This document shows, piece by piece, positions 36,736 to 41,555 of a stretch of DNA of 64,000 nucleotides. A program made the translations under genes and the position numbers. Position 1 is the stretch's first letter, and the number at the start of each line of letters is the position of its first letter. The notes below the pieces were generated by a model. It saw only the letters and a program-made list of their open reading frames with translations, did not search any database and was not told the origin of the DNA. This DNA is from Candidatus Zixiibacteriota bacterium. GTDB taxonomy: Bacteria; Zixibacteria; MSB-5A5; WJJR01. Location: positions 36,463 through 100,462 of the forward strand of contig JBFMGX010000016.1 of NCBI GenBank assembly GCA_040752595.1. The letters run 5' to 3'.

Positions 36736-38541
36736 TCAATTCGGGGCCTGGTCGGCCAGAGTCAGAGTGACCCCCCAGCCCGCTTGATCCTCCGGCGGGG
36801 CGGCATTCCAATCGCCGAAGGCATGGGAATCGTCGGTCACGAAGCGCAGCAGGTACTCCCCTTTGTCCAATAGAATCGTCTGATCGACGACGCGGTTCTT
36901 CTCGGTGCCGCCGGCATGGGACGTCTTCCGGTACGTCATCTCCCAGACGACGTCCCCGGTGCCGATCTCCTCGATCCAGCCGTAGTCGCTCATGCCCGAT
37001 CTCGTGCCCTCGCCGACCGCGTGAATGTGCACGCGGGTGGGCGAACTCAACGTGAAGCGCTGCTCGCGCTCCTCGTCGTCGCCGACCTCGGTGAGGGCCG
37101 CAATCACGCCCGGCGTCCTGAGCCGGGATTTGGGTACCACCACAAAGGTCGACGTGTCGAAGCCGTCGGTCGCGGGAAACAACGTGACACCGTACGATTG
37201 CTGATCGTGGGGCGGCGATGTATTCCATCCCCCCGCGTAGGAATGCGAGCCGTCGGAACTGTAATACAACAGGAAATCACCGGCGTCGAAATGCACGATG
37301 CCGTCGAACTGGCGGTTCTTCCTCGCCCCACCCGCCGGTTCGGTGTTGTCCCACGTCATCTCCCAAACCTTGCGCTTGTTCTCTGCCTTGACGACCCAGG
37401 CGTAGTCCGCCATGCGGTTGTCGTATTGGTCATACTCCCCGATCGCGTAGACGCGGAGCGGTTCGGCCCGCGTCAGACGAAACGCCTGGGACTTCAGTTC
37501 GTTGTCACCGATCTCGACCATCCGGAGCAAGGCCGCACGGGAAGTTCCGCCCTCATACGGGATAATCAACGGGCGCTCCGCTTCATGGATCGGGATGATC
37601 TGCAGGCCCCACGCCCCGGGATCATAGGGGGGCGGCGCATTCCAGTCGTCGTAGGTATGGGAATCGTCGGTCACATAGAAGGCGACATAGTCCCCGCGGG
37701 GCAGGTGCACGCGATCGTGGAATCGTCTGTTTTTCGCCGCGCCGCCGGCCAGATCGGTGTTCTCCCGGGTCATCACCCAAACGCGTCGACCGAGCCGGGC
37801 ATCGTTGATCCATCCCCAATCGACCATCGCGTCGCCGGACTGGGAATACTCCCCGATCGCGTAGATCTCAAGGTCCAAGTCGGCCTGAAGCGTGAATCCC
37901 TCCTGTCGGTACGAATCGTTGCCGGGACGGACAAGGCCGACAGCAGGTGCGCGCTGCGTCCCCGCGACGGTCTCCCGCAGGGCCGCGGCGTCACCCGTGA
38001 TCACGACGTGATAGCGGGGAGCAAGAGAGCTCAGTCCGTCGTTCTTGTCACCCCTTCCCAGACGCGATAGCGCCTCGCCGAGCCGCTTGAAAACCTCCCC
38101 CAGATTCTCACCGTCGAATCCACCGGGAAAGATGTCCGGCCAGCCGACATAGTAGTACAGCTCGTACGACCCCCGCCGCAACCTCACGTTACCCTCGAAT
38201 CGGCGGAGCGACTTCGAGTCGGGAACGGGTTCGGTAATTTCCTCATCCAGGGACCAGACCATGGTGCGCGTCTTGGCATCCAGAATCCAAGGGTACGCAA
38301 AGAAGCTCTGCCCCGATTCCAAGGCCGCACCCACCGCCGCGATCGTGACATCCAGATCCCGATCAACCGTGAAGTAGCGATGGACCAGATCTCGTGACGA
38401 CAGATCAGCAATCTCAATGGTCCCGTCGGCCCGCGCCGTCCTCGGCACGAATGCGTCCCACGCGGCCGCGGCAACCACCAAGACGGCAAGCGTGATGATG
38501 CGCGTGCCGGTCACGGTATGGGCGTGACAGCGCGCCCGCAT
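36736..38541 (-). CDS. Secreted protein with four copies of an unrecognised repeat domain
   Basis: About 601 aa. A signal peptide (TRIITLAVLVVAAAAWDAF, ending TARA) precedes four related modules. Copies 2, 3 and 4 share AIGE or AVGE, then DWGW/DYAW/DYGW, VWVMT/VWEMT, AGG..KNR, a GDY or GEYLL strand, DDSH or DGSH, DWN or GWN, PPxD, and a WG/YG close. They cover about residues 225-330, 345-455 and 490-600. Copy 1 is divergent (FFAYPWI, TMVWSLDEE, GSYELYYYVG). I do not recognise the domain; its alternating aromatic strands suggest a beta-sandwich. The start is uncertain: in-frame ATGs at 38550, 38592 and 38637 exist, and only 38637 has a ribosome-binding site, supplied by a repeat element. Confidence 0.75.
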   Translation of the reverse strand: MRARCHAHTVTGTRIITLAVLVVAAAAWDAFVPRTARADGTIEIADLSSRDLVHRYFTVDRDLDVTIAAVGAALESGQSFFAYPWILDAKTRTMVWSLDEEITEPVPDSKSLRRFEGNVRLRRGSYELYYYVGWPDIFPGGFDGENLGEVFKRLGEALSRLGRGDKNDGLSSLAPRYHVVITGDAAALRETVAGTQRAPAVGLVRPGNDSYRQEGFTLQADLDLEIYAIGEYSQSGDAMVDWGWINDARLGRRVWVMTRENTDLAGGAAKNRRFHDRVHLPRGDYVAFYVTDDSHTYDDWNAPPPYDPGAWGLQIIPIHEAERPLIIPYEGGTSRAALLRMVEIGDNELKSQAFRLTRAEPLRVYAIGEYDQYDNRMADYAWVVKAENKRKVWEMTWDNTEPAGGARKNRQFDGIVHFDAGDFLLYYSSDGSHSYAGGWNTSPPHDQQSYGVTLFPATDGFDTSTFVVVPKSRLRTPGVIAALTEVGDDEEREQRFTLSSPTRVHIHAVGEGTRSGMSDYGWIEEIGTGDVVWEMTYRKTSHAGGTEKNRVVDQTILLDKGEYLLRFVTDDSHAFGDWNAAPPEDQAGWGVTLTLADQAPN

Positions 38542-38638: not shown

Positions 38639-38691
38639 ACCTCTCCCTGCGGGAGGGGTCGCTTGGACCGGAGGTCCAAGCGGGTGAGAGA
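38639..38691. repeat. Dispersed repeat, third copy, with CGCTTGGACC stem
   Basis: ACCTCTCCCT and GGGAGGGG pair, followed by a 10-bp perfect stem CGCTTGGACC/GGTCCAAGCG (38660-38682, loop GGA), then CGGGTGAGAG. Same order as at 29252-29304, but the second stem has an unrelated sequence. A partial echo (GGCCGGAGGTCC) follows near 38725. Confidence 0.75.
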
Positions 38692-38763: not shown

Positions 38764-40116
38764 TCAGAACCCGGTCTGGCCGGAAAAACGGAACGATCCC
38801 AAGTGCACGGCCGGCGCGGTGATGCACCCCAGTGAATCCCACCAGGCGTTGATGCACTGCCGCTGGGCCGACAGCGCTTTCACCGTGCCAAACGCCCTCA
38901 GCATGCTGTCTGTGAAACGCAGGTTCTTCACGCCCCCCTGCAAACGCCCGTCCTTGATCCGCATCAGGCCGTCCCGCGTCATGCCCGTCAGCACGGCATG
39001 CGGCGTGTCCAGGAAGCCGTTGATGTAGTGAAACCGGGTCACCAGAAGCCCGTCGCCGACACCGGCGATCATCTGCGGCAACGAGGAATCGCCTGGGGCC
39101 ACAAACAGATTCAGCGCCAGAGCGCCTTCGCCGGAACTGTCCGGTGTCAGCGCATGACCGGTAGACACCGTCTTTCCCCGGGACGCTGTGAGGGAATCGT
39201 AGACGACTCCTTTGGCCACACCGGCCGTGATCAGCTCCACCCGCCGTTTCGGCACACCCTCGAAGTCAAACGGCATTGCCACGCCTGCGGGGTCGGTACC
39301 ATCGTCGTGGATGCTGATCTCTTCCCCGGTGATTCTCTGTCCAATCCTGTTGCACATGAAGGAGGTGCCGTCGAGCATCGCCTTCGAGCCAAAGCCGATG
39401 TAGTTGACCCACTCCATGAGTGCAGCCACCGCCGCCGGTTCGAGCACGACCTCGTACTCGCCGGGAGATAGAGTCTCGGGGTCGGCACAGGCGACCGCCT
39501 TGTCCACCGCTGCCCCGGCCACGGCGCGCACGTCGAGCGCACCGACGTCGCGGGAGAGACCCTCGGCATACCCCGAAGAGTTCTTCGTCATGGCGATCAC
39601 CGACAGCGATGCCGAGGTGAGCGGCTGATACGCCGCGACGCCGCGCGTGTTGACGACCGCGACTTCGCCCGTCCCTGTGGTCAACGATCCGGCGACCGTG
39701 CACCCCCGCCGTGACGCTACTTGGACAATGCTTTTCACTTTGAGCCCACGGGAACGTGGCGTGAACTTCGCCGTTTCACTGAAGAAGGTGGAGACGTCCG
39801 GATATGTCGCCGGTCCCGGCAAGGACTCAAAGTGCGGATTCTCCTTCTGCGCCTTGGCAATCTTGATCGCCGCTCGATAGGCCGCTTTCAAGTCGCCGCG
39901 TGACAGGGAGTTGGTCGATGCCACACCGAGCTTCCGGCCCATGGCGACGCGGAAGAACACTTTGCTTTGCGTCTCAGCGACGTTCTGGTGGATGATGGAA
40001 TTGGCGAATCGTGTCAGCCCCGACTCGGAGCCGACGAAGACAGCTTCGCCCTGATCGGCCAGTTTGAGCGCCAATGTGTCGCCCAATAGCGTGACAATCT
40101 TGTCTTTGCCGATCAT
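38764..40116 (-). CDS. tldE: TldE/PmbA-type subunit of the TldD-TldE protease
   Basis: A 450-aa U62-family protein, the non-metal subunit that partners TldD. Signature parts are ESGLTRFANSIIHQNVAET near the start, LEPAAVAALMEWVNYIGFG, DDGTDPAGVAMPFDFEGVPK and NLFVAPGDSSLPQMIAGVGDG. TldD/E degrade unstructured peptides and mature some modified peptides. ATG overlaps the tldD stop by 4 bases, as typical for the pair. The frame is open upstream inside tldD and was not used. Confidence 0.9.
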   Translation of the reverse strand: MIGKDKIVTLLGDTLALKLADQGEAVFVGSESGLTRFANSIIHQNVAETQSKVFFRVAMGRKLGVASTNSLSRGDLKAAYRAAIKIAKAQKENPHFESLPGPATYPDVSTFFSETAKFTPRSRGLKVKSIVQVASRRGCTVAGSLTTGTGEVAVVNTRGVAAYQPLTSASLSVIAMTKNSSGYAEGLSRDVGALDVRAVAGAAVDKAVACADPETLSPGEYEVVLEPAAVAALMEWVNYIGFGSKAMLDGTSFMCNRIGQRITGEEISIHDDGTDPAGVAMPFDFEGVPKRRVELITAGVAKGVVYDSLTASRGKTVSTGHALTPDSSGEGALALNLFVAPGDSSLPQMIAGVGDGLLVTRFHYINGFLDTPHAVLTGMTRDGLMRIKDGRLQGGVKNLRFTDSMLRAFGTVKALSAQRQCINAWWDSLGCITAPAVHLGSFRFSGQTGF

Positions 40117-41555
40117 CGGCTCACCCCCACGGTGATCTGGCGAAAACGCGCCGGGGCGGCGCCATGCGCGACCCGCGCCACCTGCATCGGCTGCCCTTTG
40201 CCGCAGTTGGGAACACCCCACACATGCCAGTGATCGCGGTTGCAGATCGCGTCGCAGGCGTTCCAGAACTCCGGCGTGATCCCGGTGTAGAGAGCGTTCT
40301 TATATAGTTGTCCTTTGCGTCCGCCTTTGATCTCCCACGCCGCCTCGACGCCGAACTGGAAATTCAAGCGGCGGTCATCGATCGACCACGAGTTGTTGGT
40401 GTCGAGGAACAACGCCCCGTCGGAATCGGCGAGAAGATCATCGAAGGAGACCGACCCCGGCTCCAAGTTGATATTGGTCATGCGAATCAATGGAATCCGA
40501 TTCCAACGGTCGGCGCGCATCGTACCGTTCGAGGTCCGATCGATCACCGGCGCCGTCTCGCGCGACGTCAGGTAACCGACAAAGACCCCTTCGCGGACCA
40601 GATCGGTTCTCTGGGCCGGCACACCTTCGTCATCGTATCCGAATGTCCCCAGCCCCTCCGGCGTGGTGGCGTCCGCGACGATGTTCACCAGCCGGGAGCC
40701 GTAGCGGAGTTTCCCCAGTTGATCGACGGTCAGAAAGCTCCCGCCGGCCAGCGAGACCTCGGTTCCGAGCACGCGATCAAGCTCGGCCGGGTGACCGCAG
40801 GATTCATGCACCTGCAAGGCCATCTGCGAGGCGCCGATGACGATGTCGCGCGAGCCCGACGGGCAGACCGGCGCGGTCAGAAGGGCAACCGCCTCCTCGC
40901 GGACGCGCTCCGCCTCGTCCTTCAGATTCATGCGCTCGATCAACTCGTATCCGCCGGTCCCATAGTCGCCGCGGTGCGAGTTGGGATAGGAGCGTCGCTG
41001 AACCTCTCCCGAGTCGACCGCGGTGGCGGTATACCCCGCTCCCGATTCGGTCAGCACCTGTTCGATCAGGGCACCCTCAGTTGAGGCGAAGATCTTCTCA
41101 GTACGGAAAAAGTCCATCGACGCTTCGGCAACTTGGATCTTGCGATCCCGGCGCAACACGCGGTTGACGAAGGAGAGAAGCTCGAGCTTTTTCGACAGCG
41201 GAACCTTGAACGGATCGAGCGTCACCGGCGTTTCGAAACGTCCGGTGGCAGGCACCAGGGGCGCGAGCGTCACGTCGTGTGTCTTGACCAGGGCGCTGGC
41301 CTTGGCAATCGCCAGTGCCCGACCGGCGACCTTGCGCATCTCCCCCAGCGTGCAGATCGCCGAGGACGCAAACCCCCAGGCACCGTCGGCGAGGACCCGG
41401 ATGCCGAATCCCTGATCGAGATCACGAGAGAGCGTGTCCACCGTCTCATTGGTGAGTTTGATGTTCTCGGTGGTTGTGCGGACATACCGGATGTCGGCAT
41501 AGGTGACGCCCCGGGACTTCAAGAAGTCGATTGTGGTGAGTAGTCGATCCTTCAT
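40113..41555 (-). CDS. tldD: Metalloprotease TldD
   Basis: A 480-aa protein with the zinc motif HESCGH (H250, E251, H255) followed by PAELDRVLG, the diagnostic HExxxH of TldD. Other family parts: DQGFGIRVLADGAWGFAS near the start, DDEGVPAQRTDLV, and GALFLDTNNSWSIDDRRLNF, where the last ligands lie. It forms the active heterodimer with TldE. GGAGGG stands just before the ATG and a good promoter lies at 41597-41625. No obvious precursor peptide gene is nearby. Confidence 0.92.
   Translation of the reverse strand: MKDRLLTTIDFLKSRGVTYADIRYVRTTTENIKLTNETVDTLSRDLDQGFGIRVLADGAWGFASSAICTLGEMRKVAGRALAIAKASALVKTHDVTLAPLVPATGRFETPVTLDPFKVPLSKKLELLSFVNRVLRRDRKIQVAEASMDFFRTEKIFASTEGALIEQVLTESGAGYTATAVDSGEVQRRSYPNSHRGDYGTGGYELIERMNLKDEAERVREEAVALLTAPVCPSGSRDIVIGASQMALQVHESCGHPAELDRVLGTEVSLAGGSFLTVDQLGKLRYGSRLVNIVADATTPEGLGTFGYDDEGVPAQRTDLVREGVFVGYLTSRETAPVIDRTSNGTMRADRWNRIPLIRMTNINLEPGSVSFDDLLADSDGALFLDTNNSWSIDDRRLNFQFGVEAAWEIKGGRKGQLYKNALYTGITPEFWNACDAICNRDHWHVWGVPNCGKGQPMQVARVAHGAAPARFRQITVGVSR

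Follow-up and report, generated by a model that had tools for sequence, protein, structure and literature searches.

An exported four-module protein of Candidatus Zixiibacteriota built from a probably undescribed module, likely to bind in or around the cell envelope

The four-module gene and its modules

The window, a stretch of 64,000 nucleotides from the genome of a Candidatus Zixiibacteriota bacterium, carries on its minus strand a gene for an exported protein made of four copies of one module, with a pair of metallopeptidase genes upstream of it (Table 1). A start at ATG 38541 gives the protein a normal, standard-type signal peptide, within which AlphaFold predicts a helix at residues 15–31. 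The open frame offers two earlier starts, and judging from the sequence it is uncertain which of the three is used. The N-terminus is hydrophobic and without a lipobox in 99 of 100 homologues. Some searches reported one in-frame stop in the four-module frames of two other loci, L015 (G032) and L025 (G019); these stops could precede the true start or reflect assembly errors.

Table 1. Features of the four-module gene and its upstream neighbours (window positions)
Feature	Position	Strand	Remarks
Four-module exported protein gene	36736..38541	minus	601 aa from ATG 38541
Alternative start ATG	38637	minus	Shine-Dalgarno-like stretch GGGAGAGG just upstream
Alternative start TTG	38679	minus	reached by the open frame
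Signal peptide, residues 1–38	38428..38541	minus	type I style: hydrophobic core, ...TARA/D; no lipobox
Module 1, residues 39–190	37972..38427	minus	fold residues retained, polar site residues gone; from profile, conservation and strands
Helical insert of module 1, residues 147–176 (about 30)	38014..38103	minus	AlphaFold secondary structure; replaces the DDSH..WN..PP loop between the last two strands
Module 2, residues 203–317	37591..37935	minus	polar set complete: GE, D, AGG-KNR, DDSH, WN, PP
Module 3, residues 338–456	37174..37530	minus	polar set complete
Module 4, residues 480–595	36757..37104	minus	polar set complete: E511, D519, K548-N549-R550, D570, S572, H573, N579
tldE/pmbA-type metallopeptidase gene	38764..40221	minus	directly upstream; Pfam PmbA_TldD; context only
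tldD-type metallopeptidase gene, partner of tldE	40113..41555	minus	Pfam PmbA_TldD; context only

A preliminary description of this reading frame had claimed a four-copy repeat with an ordered set of motifs, and both were located as claimed. A profile of modules 2–4 from other genomes, from which the window's own family was excluded, matched the protein four times: at residues 43–131 (42.9 bits, E = 2.3e-15), 203–316 (150 bits), 338–456 (139 bits) and 480–594 (157 bits). The top score among 1000 shuffles of the protein was 6.3 bits, which indicates that the repeat is real, copy 1 included. The full module measures about 115–120 residues, longer than the 90–110 first proposed. Copy 1 had been called degenerate, which is true of the polar motif set, absent from this copy, and of the loop taken over by the helical insert, but not of the fold residues, which are retained.

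AlphaFold2 models built from the family alignment reached a pLDDT of 85.8 for the whole protein and of 95.6 for module 4 alone. Each module is predicted as an eight-stranded beta-sandwich, as had been guessed from the motifs, and copy 1 is predicted with high confidence although it lacks the polar set. The modules are separate in the predicted structure, which argues against one continuous fold. Foldseek searches with a single module returned nothing below E = 1e-3 from the PDB, and a search of a viral structure library likewise gave no match below this threshold. The full-length search mixed the domains and can be read only as 'jelly-roll repeats'. The nearest folds (GOLD, PPC, collagen-binding, CBM6, C1q and haemagglutinin-esterase lectin) had TM-scores of about 0.4–0.5 to the query. 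The jelly rolls of the PPC and collagen-binding type (5sv5, 1nqj, 2o8o, 5iku) resemble the module in length (~110–120 aa) and in their jelly-roll beta-sandwich, with a Foldseek probability of 1.00, and they too are exported, often in tandem and C-terminal to hydrolases. However, their TM-scores to the query are 0.41–0.47 at E > 1e-3, their identity is about 10–12% and no Pfam match links them to the module. Being an exported jelly-roll beta-sandwich within the 100–120 aa typical of PPC, the module would share at most the fold class with it. The GOLD domain of p24 delta (5azx/5azy) is among the top TM-scores (0.47–0.50 to the query, 0.60 to the target), but it is a domain of the eukaryotic secretory pathway, with 8–9% identity, a non-significant E of 2.3e-3 and no Pfam match. 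Based on these models, the fold class of the module is known and its family is not.

Sequence libraries gave the same picture. The window protein matched no Pfam-A family at E up to 10 and no entry of NCBIfam or PADLOC, and its PHROGs matches were not significant. Searches of PDB sequences returned only matches with E > 0.6, and those made with profiles only matches with E > 0.7. The module therefore belongs to a domain family without a name in these libraries, in agreement with the novelty first suggested for it. A Pfam scan of 36 homologues and 58 single modules yielded only weak scattered matches, most commonly to AMPK1_CBM, and PPC was absent from the families listed. We rejected an identity with the glycogen-binding AMPK1_CBM: in the individual proteins examined, the scores of 16.4 and 19.9 bits fall below the cut-off of 26.8, and the matches are partial, over 30–40 residues. 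The likeness to CBM48/AMPK1_CBM (PF16561) is limited to the stretch L..G.Y...Y.TDGSH, which matches weakly in 14 of the 36 homologues; the profile is covered only in part, no stretch passes alone and the family is absent from the listed top structural matches. No named family was found to carry the set GE...D...AGG-KNR...DDSH..WN, and no paper on the domain was found among open-licence papers.

Distribution, architectures and gene neighbourhoods

By record title, the closest relatives belong to Candidatus Zixiibacteriota. Among Zixibacteria genomes with completeness of at least 90% and contamination of at most 5%, 53 of 79 encode a four-module protein, with one gene each apart from very few exceptions. 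The protein was found in all 24 Calditrichota genomes, in 25 of 59 genomes of a KSB1-type phylum, in 15 of 99 of an Ignavibacteria-type class (at least two of the 15 with the sensor form only) and in 2 of 101 Gemmatimonadota, with single examples in records labelled Latescibacterota, Neomarinimicrobiota and Acidobacteriota. The expectation that the repeats recur in other FCB genomes was thus borne out. One locus titled Actinomycetota (L062) is near-identical to a Calditrichota locus (L055) and probably comes from a mislabelled or contaminated bin. No relative was found in phages, plasmids or viral contigs, and we consequently rejected an origin from mobile elements.

Nearly all of the stand-alone proteins collected have four copies; six were found in three Calditrichota proteins and three in one shorter protein. 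We compared the copies across 97 proteins and observed that the best match elsewhere was the copy of the same rank in 386 of 388 cases (96/97, 97/97, 97/97 and 96/97 for copies 1–4). In the two exceptions the best match was the copy at the corresponding end of a six-module protein, and between phyla the same-rank copy was still the best match in 185 of 204 cases. A recent amplification of the repeat is ruled out by this rank-to-rank orthology, which marks the four-copy order as ancient and its positions as differentiated. The six-module versions (L136, L138 and L144; 856–888 aa) consist of one site-less copy and five full copies. One Zixibacteria family has a coiled coil of about 100 residues between modules 3 and 4 (L038:2768-4927 and L039:5128-7287).

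The module also occurs outside the tandem proteins. Single copies were found in proteins of 1068–1369 aa in Calditrichota and Ignavibacteria-type genomes, and the long proteins of KSB1 carry the module too, some of them twice. The ones scanned with Pfam are Reg_prop/Y_Y_Y propeller sensors whose output is SpoIIE phosphatase, HisKA or HisKA_3/HATPase; they carry the module between or within the propeller parts, at three positions (residues ~157–278, 287–422 and 440–696). Some copies are therefore housed in the sensor domains of hybrid two-component propeller sensors; there, however, the module is an extra insert at varying places with no Pfam match of its own, and the window protein has no propeller. 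Three Calditrichota loci, L132 (1040-16120), L133 and L134, contain tandem clusters of three paralogous propeller sensors, each with one module at a similar place; the scanned members carry SpoIIE. A Zixibacteria genome that also encodes a four-module protein has a lipoprotein-like protein of the beta-lactamase fold (PF00144; L147:5219-7018) with one module at its C-terminus. These varied contexts (four or six in tandem, three sensor output types, behind PF00144) show the module to be an autonomous extracytoplasmic domain. The proposal of a new domain family of secreted proteins stands as far as the libraries hold no name for it, but 'secreted' is too narrow, since the module is also present in membrane sensors and behind a hydrolase.

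The neighbourhood of the gene differs between phyla. In the window, RfaE-type and heptosyltransferase genes lie near the four-module gene, and tldD/tldE are neighbours in the loci of seven Zixibacteria families. The close relatives L002, L003 and L006 lack the tldD/tldE link, as do additional Zixibacteria families and all the other phyla seen. A functional operon with tldD/tldE was demoted as a candidate; this link, patchy even within Zixibacteria, is treated as lineage-specific synteny. A perfect hairpin (CTTGGACC-TCC-GGTCCAAG; window positions 38662–38680, minus strand), with no T run after it, lies between tldE and the four-module gene. It could represent a processing, attenuation or termination site, and it weakens the idea of a single transcript of tldDE and the four-module gene. 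At five loci of two Zixibacteria families (L048:5192-5887, L050, L052, L057 and L071), an exported protein of about 200–237 aa without a Pfam match is encoded between these two genes.

In Calditrichota, genes for an Omp85-like barrel, the four-module protein and a Toastrack (DUF4097) protein lie in this order on one strand in 13 of 19 newly fetched genomes, and two more of the 19 have one of the two neighbours. Most gaps in this operon measure about -4 to 23 nt. Signal peptides are present on the four-module and Toastrack proteins, and some of the barrel members include a bactofilin-like part. Records from KSB1, Ignavibacteriota, Bacteroidota and Chlorobiota again show a barrel or a Toastrack/LiaF-like gene as a neighbour. 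No such operon was seen in Zixibacteria: there the four-module gene has tldD/tldE and heptose genes for neighbours, and barrel homologues are encoded elsewhere in these genomes, including that of the window. ECF sigma genes are enriched about 4–5-fold around the family (13 genes in 12 of 80 loci, against 2.7 expected at 3.8 per Mb), which we take as supporting evidence only, since several of the loci share ancestry; DUF6249 genes are enriched near other members. Toastrack or LiaF-like operon neighbours in Calditrichota and KSB1, and ECF sigma and DUF6249 genes near other four-module genes, recall the Toastrack (DUF4097/LiaF) envelope-stress systems (PMC11237479). However, the four-module protein is itself no Toastrack: Pfam found no Toastrack, PspC or LiaI-LiaF-TM domain in it, and Toastrack is present only on its operon neighbours. 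The keywords bactofilin, ECF and DUF6249 gave no hit in PMC11237479, which therefore appears not to describe the barrel/four-module/Toastrack operon.

A polar site shared by copies 2–4

Conservation was tabulated over copies 1–4 of the 97 proteins, together with 15 extra copies from six-module proteins and 19 copies inserted in sensors; residues are given in module 4 numbering (add 476 for protein numbering). Eight residues (E35, D43, G69, K72, N73, D94, H97 and N103) are conserved at 98–100% in each of copies 2, 3 and 4 and at 100% in the extra copies of the six-module proteins. In the sensor-inserted copies, which are divergent elsewhere, they are still found at 78–94%. The Glu, Asp, Lys-Asn-Arg, Asp, His and Asn are thus common to copies 2–4 and the sensor copies, whereas they are lost in copy 1, where position 43 is alanine in 68% of the proteins, position 73 is leucine in 57% and the residues of the G-H loop are absent. 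Copy 1 nonetheless retains F20, W46, W57, L82, G85 and Y87 at 84–100%, and W46, W57, G85 and Y87 among them at 98–100%.

Residues needed only for the fold should survive in copy 1. The polar set does not, which argues that its role is functional, and from this pattern Glu35, Asp43, Lys72-Asn73-Arg74, Asp94, His97 and Asn103 look like the residues of a functional site. Copy 1 represents the core of the domain without the polar set, so that the site can be separated from the fold residues, as in a domain family of its own. The earlier argument for a binding site had drawn on conserved Asp, His and Trp together; the Asp and His do look like site residues, but Trp46 and Trp57, present in 100% of the site-less copy 1, belong to the fold. 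From the alternation of the predicted strands we infer that loops C-D, E-F and G-H would lie at one pole of the sandwich and both chain ends at the opposite one. Such a geometry fits a pocket at the tip, and it also fits the insertion of the module into loops of other proteins.

Possible roles in the cell envelope

The likeliest role of the module, judging from these results, is that of a ligand-binding domain acting outside the cytoplasm, in the cell envelope. In copies 2–4, loops C-D, E-F and G-H would form one conserved polar pocket each, at the same pole of the sandwich, and the three copies would bind the same or a similar extracytoplasmic ligand multivalently, perhaps a saccharide or another cell-envelope polymer. 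Copy 1, with its pocket lost and its helical insert, would more likely serve to dock a partner, for example the barrel or the Toastrack protein. For Calditrichota and some further phyla, these partners would probably be the Omp85-like outer-membrane barrel and the exported Toastrack of the same operon. Inserted in a propeller sensor, the module would present a ligand of this kind to the output domain, a phosphatase or a kinase. We give this reading as a whole (an exported soluble protein of four beta-sandwiches, multivalent binding of an envelope ligand by copies 2–4, docking by copy 1 and use of the same module by sensors) about an even chance. Binding at the envelope is favored by the conservation of the site, the rank orthology, the beta-sandwich, the insertions in sensors, the PF00144 fusion and the Calditrichota operon, and jelly rolls that bind carbohydrate or collagen are among the nearest folds. 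It is weakened by the fact that an enzyme or a metal site would also be consistent with conserved Glu, Asp, Lys, Asp and His, and that the operon is unseen in Zixibacteria; gene neighbours suggest a shared process only.

A conserved and usually single-copy exported protein is present in about two-thirds of the Zixibacteria genomes of good quality and in every Calditrichota genome sampled, and it is nameless in the libraries searched. Its pattern makes a testable prediction: three equivalent sites and one natural knock-out copy in the same chain, with the same site in sensors. Identifying the ligand would show what is being monitored or built on the outside of the cells in these rarely cultured phyla. 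With a model of the family, hundreds of proteins now listed as 'hypothetical' could be annotated, and so could part of one class of sensor phosphatases.

The acidic residues in the loops and the tandem arrangement would also fit a structural module in which a metal held by Asp, Glu and Asn, possibly calcium, stiffens the domain into a rigid spacer or an adhesive rod of the envelope, and the Foldseek neighbours include structures solved with calcium (ColG collagen-binding domains, 5iku; a lectin, 7f9j). We regard this as unlikely: near-invariant Lys72, Asn73 and His97 would be unusual for a calcium site, copy 1 is predicted to fold confidently without the polar residues, and a rod makes little sense for single copies within the propellers of sensors. 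Charged residues at 98–100% over 97 proteins of several phyla, and the one fusion to a serine hydrolase of the beta-lactamase fold, could alternatively mean that the module is a hydrolase or transferase of an unrecognised type, which would act on polymers of the envelope and use Glu35, Asp43, Lys72, Asp94 and His97 for catalysis. An enzyme seems less probable still, as three equal tandem copies and single insertions in sensors are typical of binding modules and Foldseek gives no convincing enzyme fold. Least probable of all, and in our view very improbable, is a role in the periplasm as an accessory to peptide processing by TldD/TldE or to biosynthesis of the LPS core. The same-strand tldD-tldE pair upstream in the window and in the seven families, and the heptosyltransferase and RfaE-type genes of the locus, would agree with it, but TldD/E are expected to be cytoplasmic and the four-module protein is exported, the link is missing in the relatives and phyla named above, and the hairpin separates tldE from the four-module gene.

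Two further readings concern the partners of the protein. Envelope binding could be part of an undescribed surveillance system of FCB bacteria, in which one family of ligand-binding domains serves both an outer-membrane complex of Omp85-like barrel, four-module protein and exported Toastrack and the transmembrane SpoIIE or histidine-kinase sensors, so that the same envelope component would be both bound structurally and sensed; we consider this extension speculative, if slightly less doubtful than the metal-stiffened rod. The protein could instead be a pure protein-protein scaffold of the barrel/Toastrack complex whose polar patch binds a protein partner, which we judge improbable to about the same degree as that rod. 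The operon is tight, the insertions in sensors could receive the same partner, and Toastrack has been proposed as a hub that assembles envelope-stress complexes (PMC11237479). Yet the barrel homologue is encoded elsewhere in Zixibacteria, and single polar residues that are near-invariant across phyla are more typical of a chemically fixed ligand. Toastrack has also been argued to be intracellular (PMC11237479); in conflict with this proposal, the Toastrack (DUF4097) proteins of two loci (L154:5654-6466 and L161:7384-8187) carry clear signal peptides.
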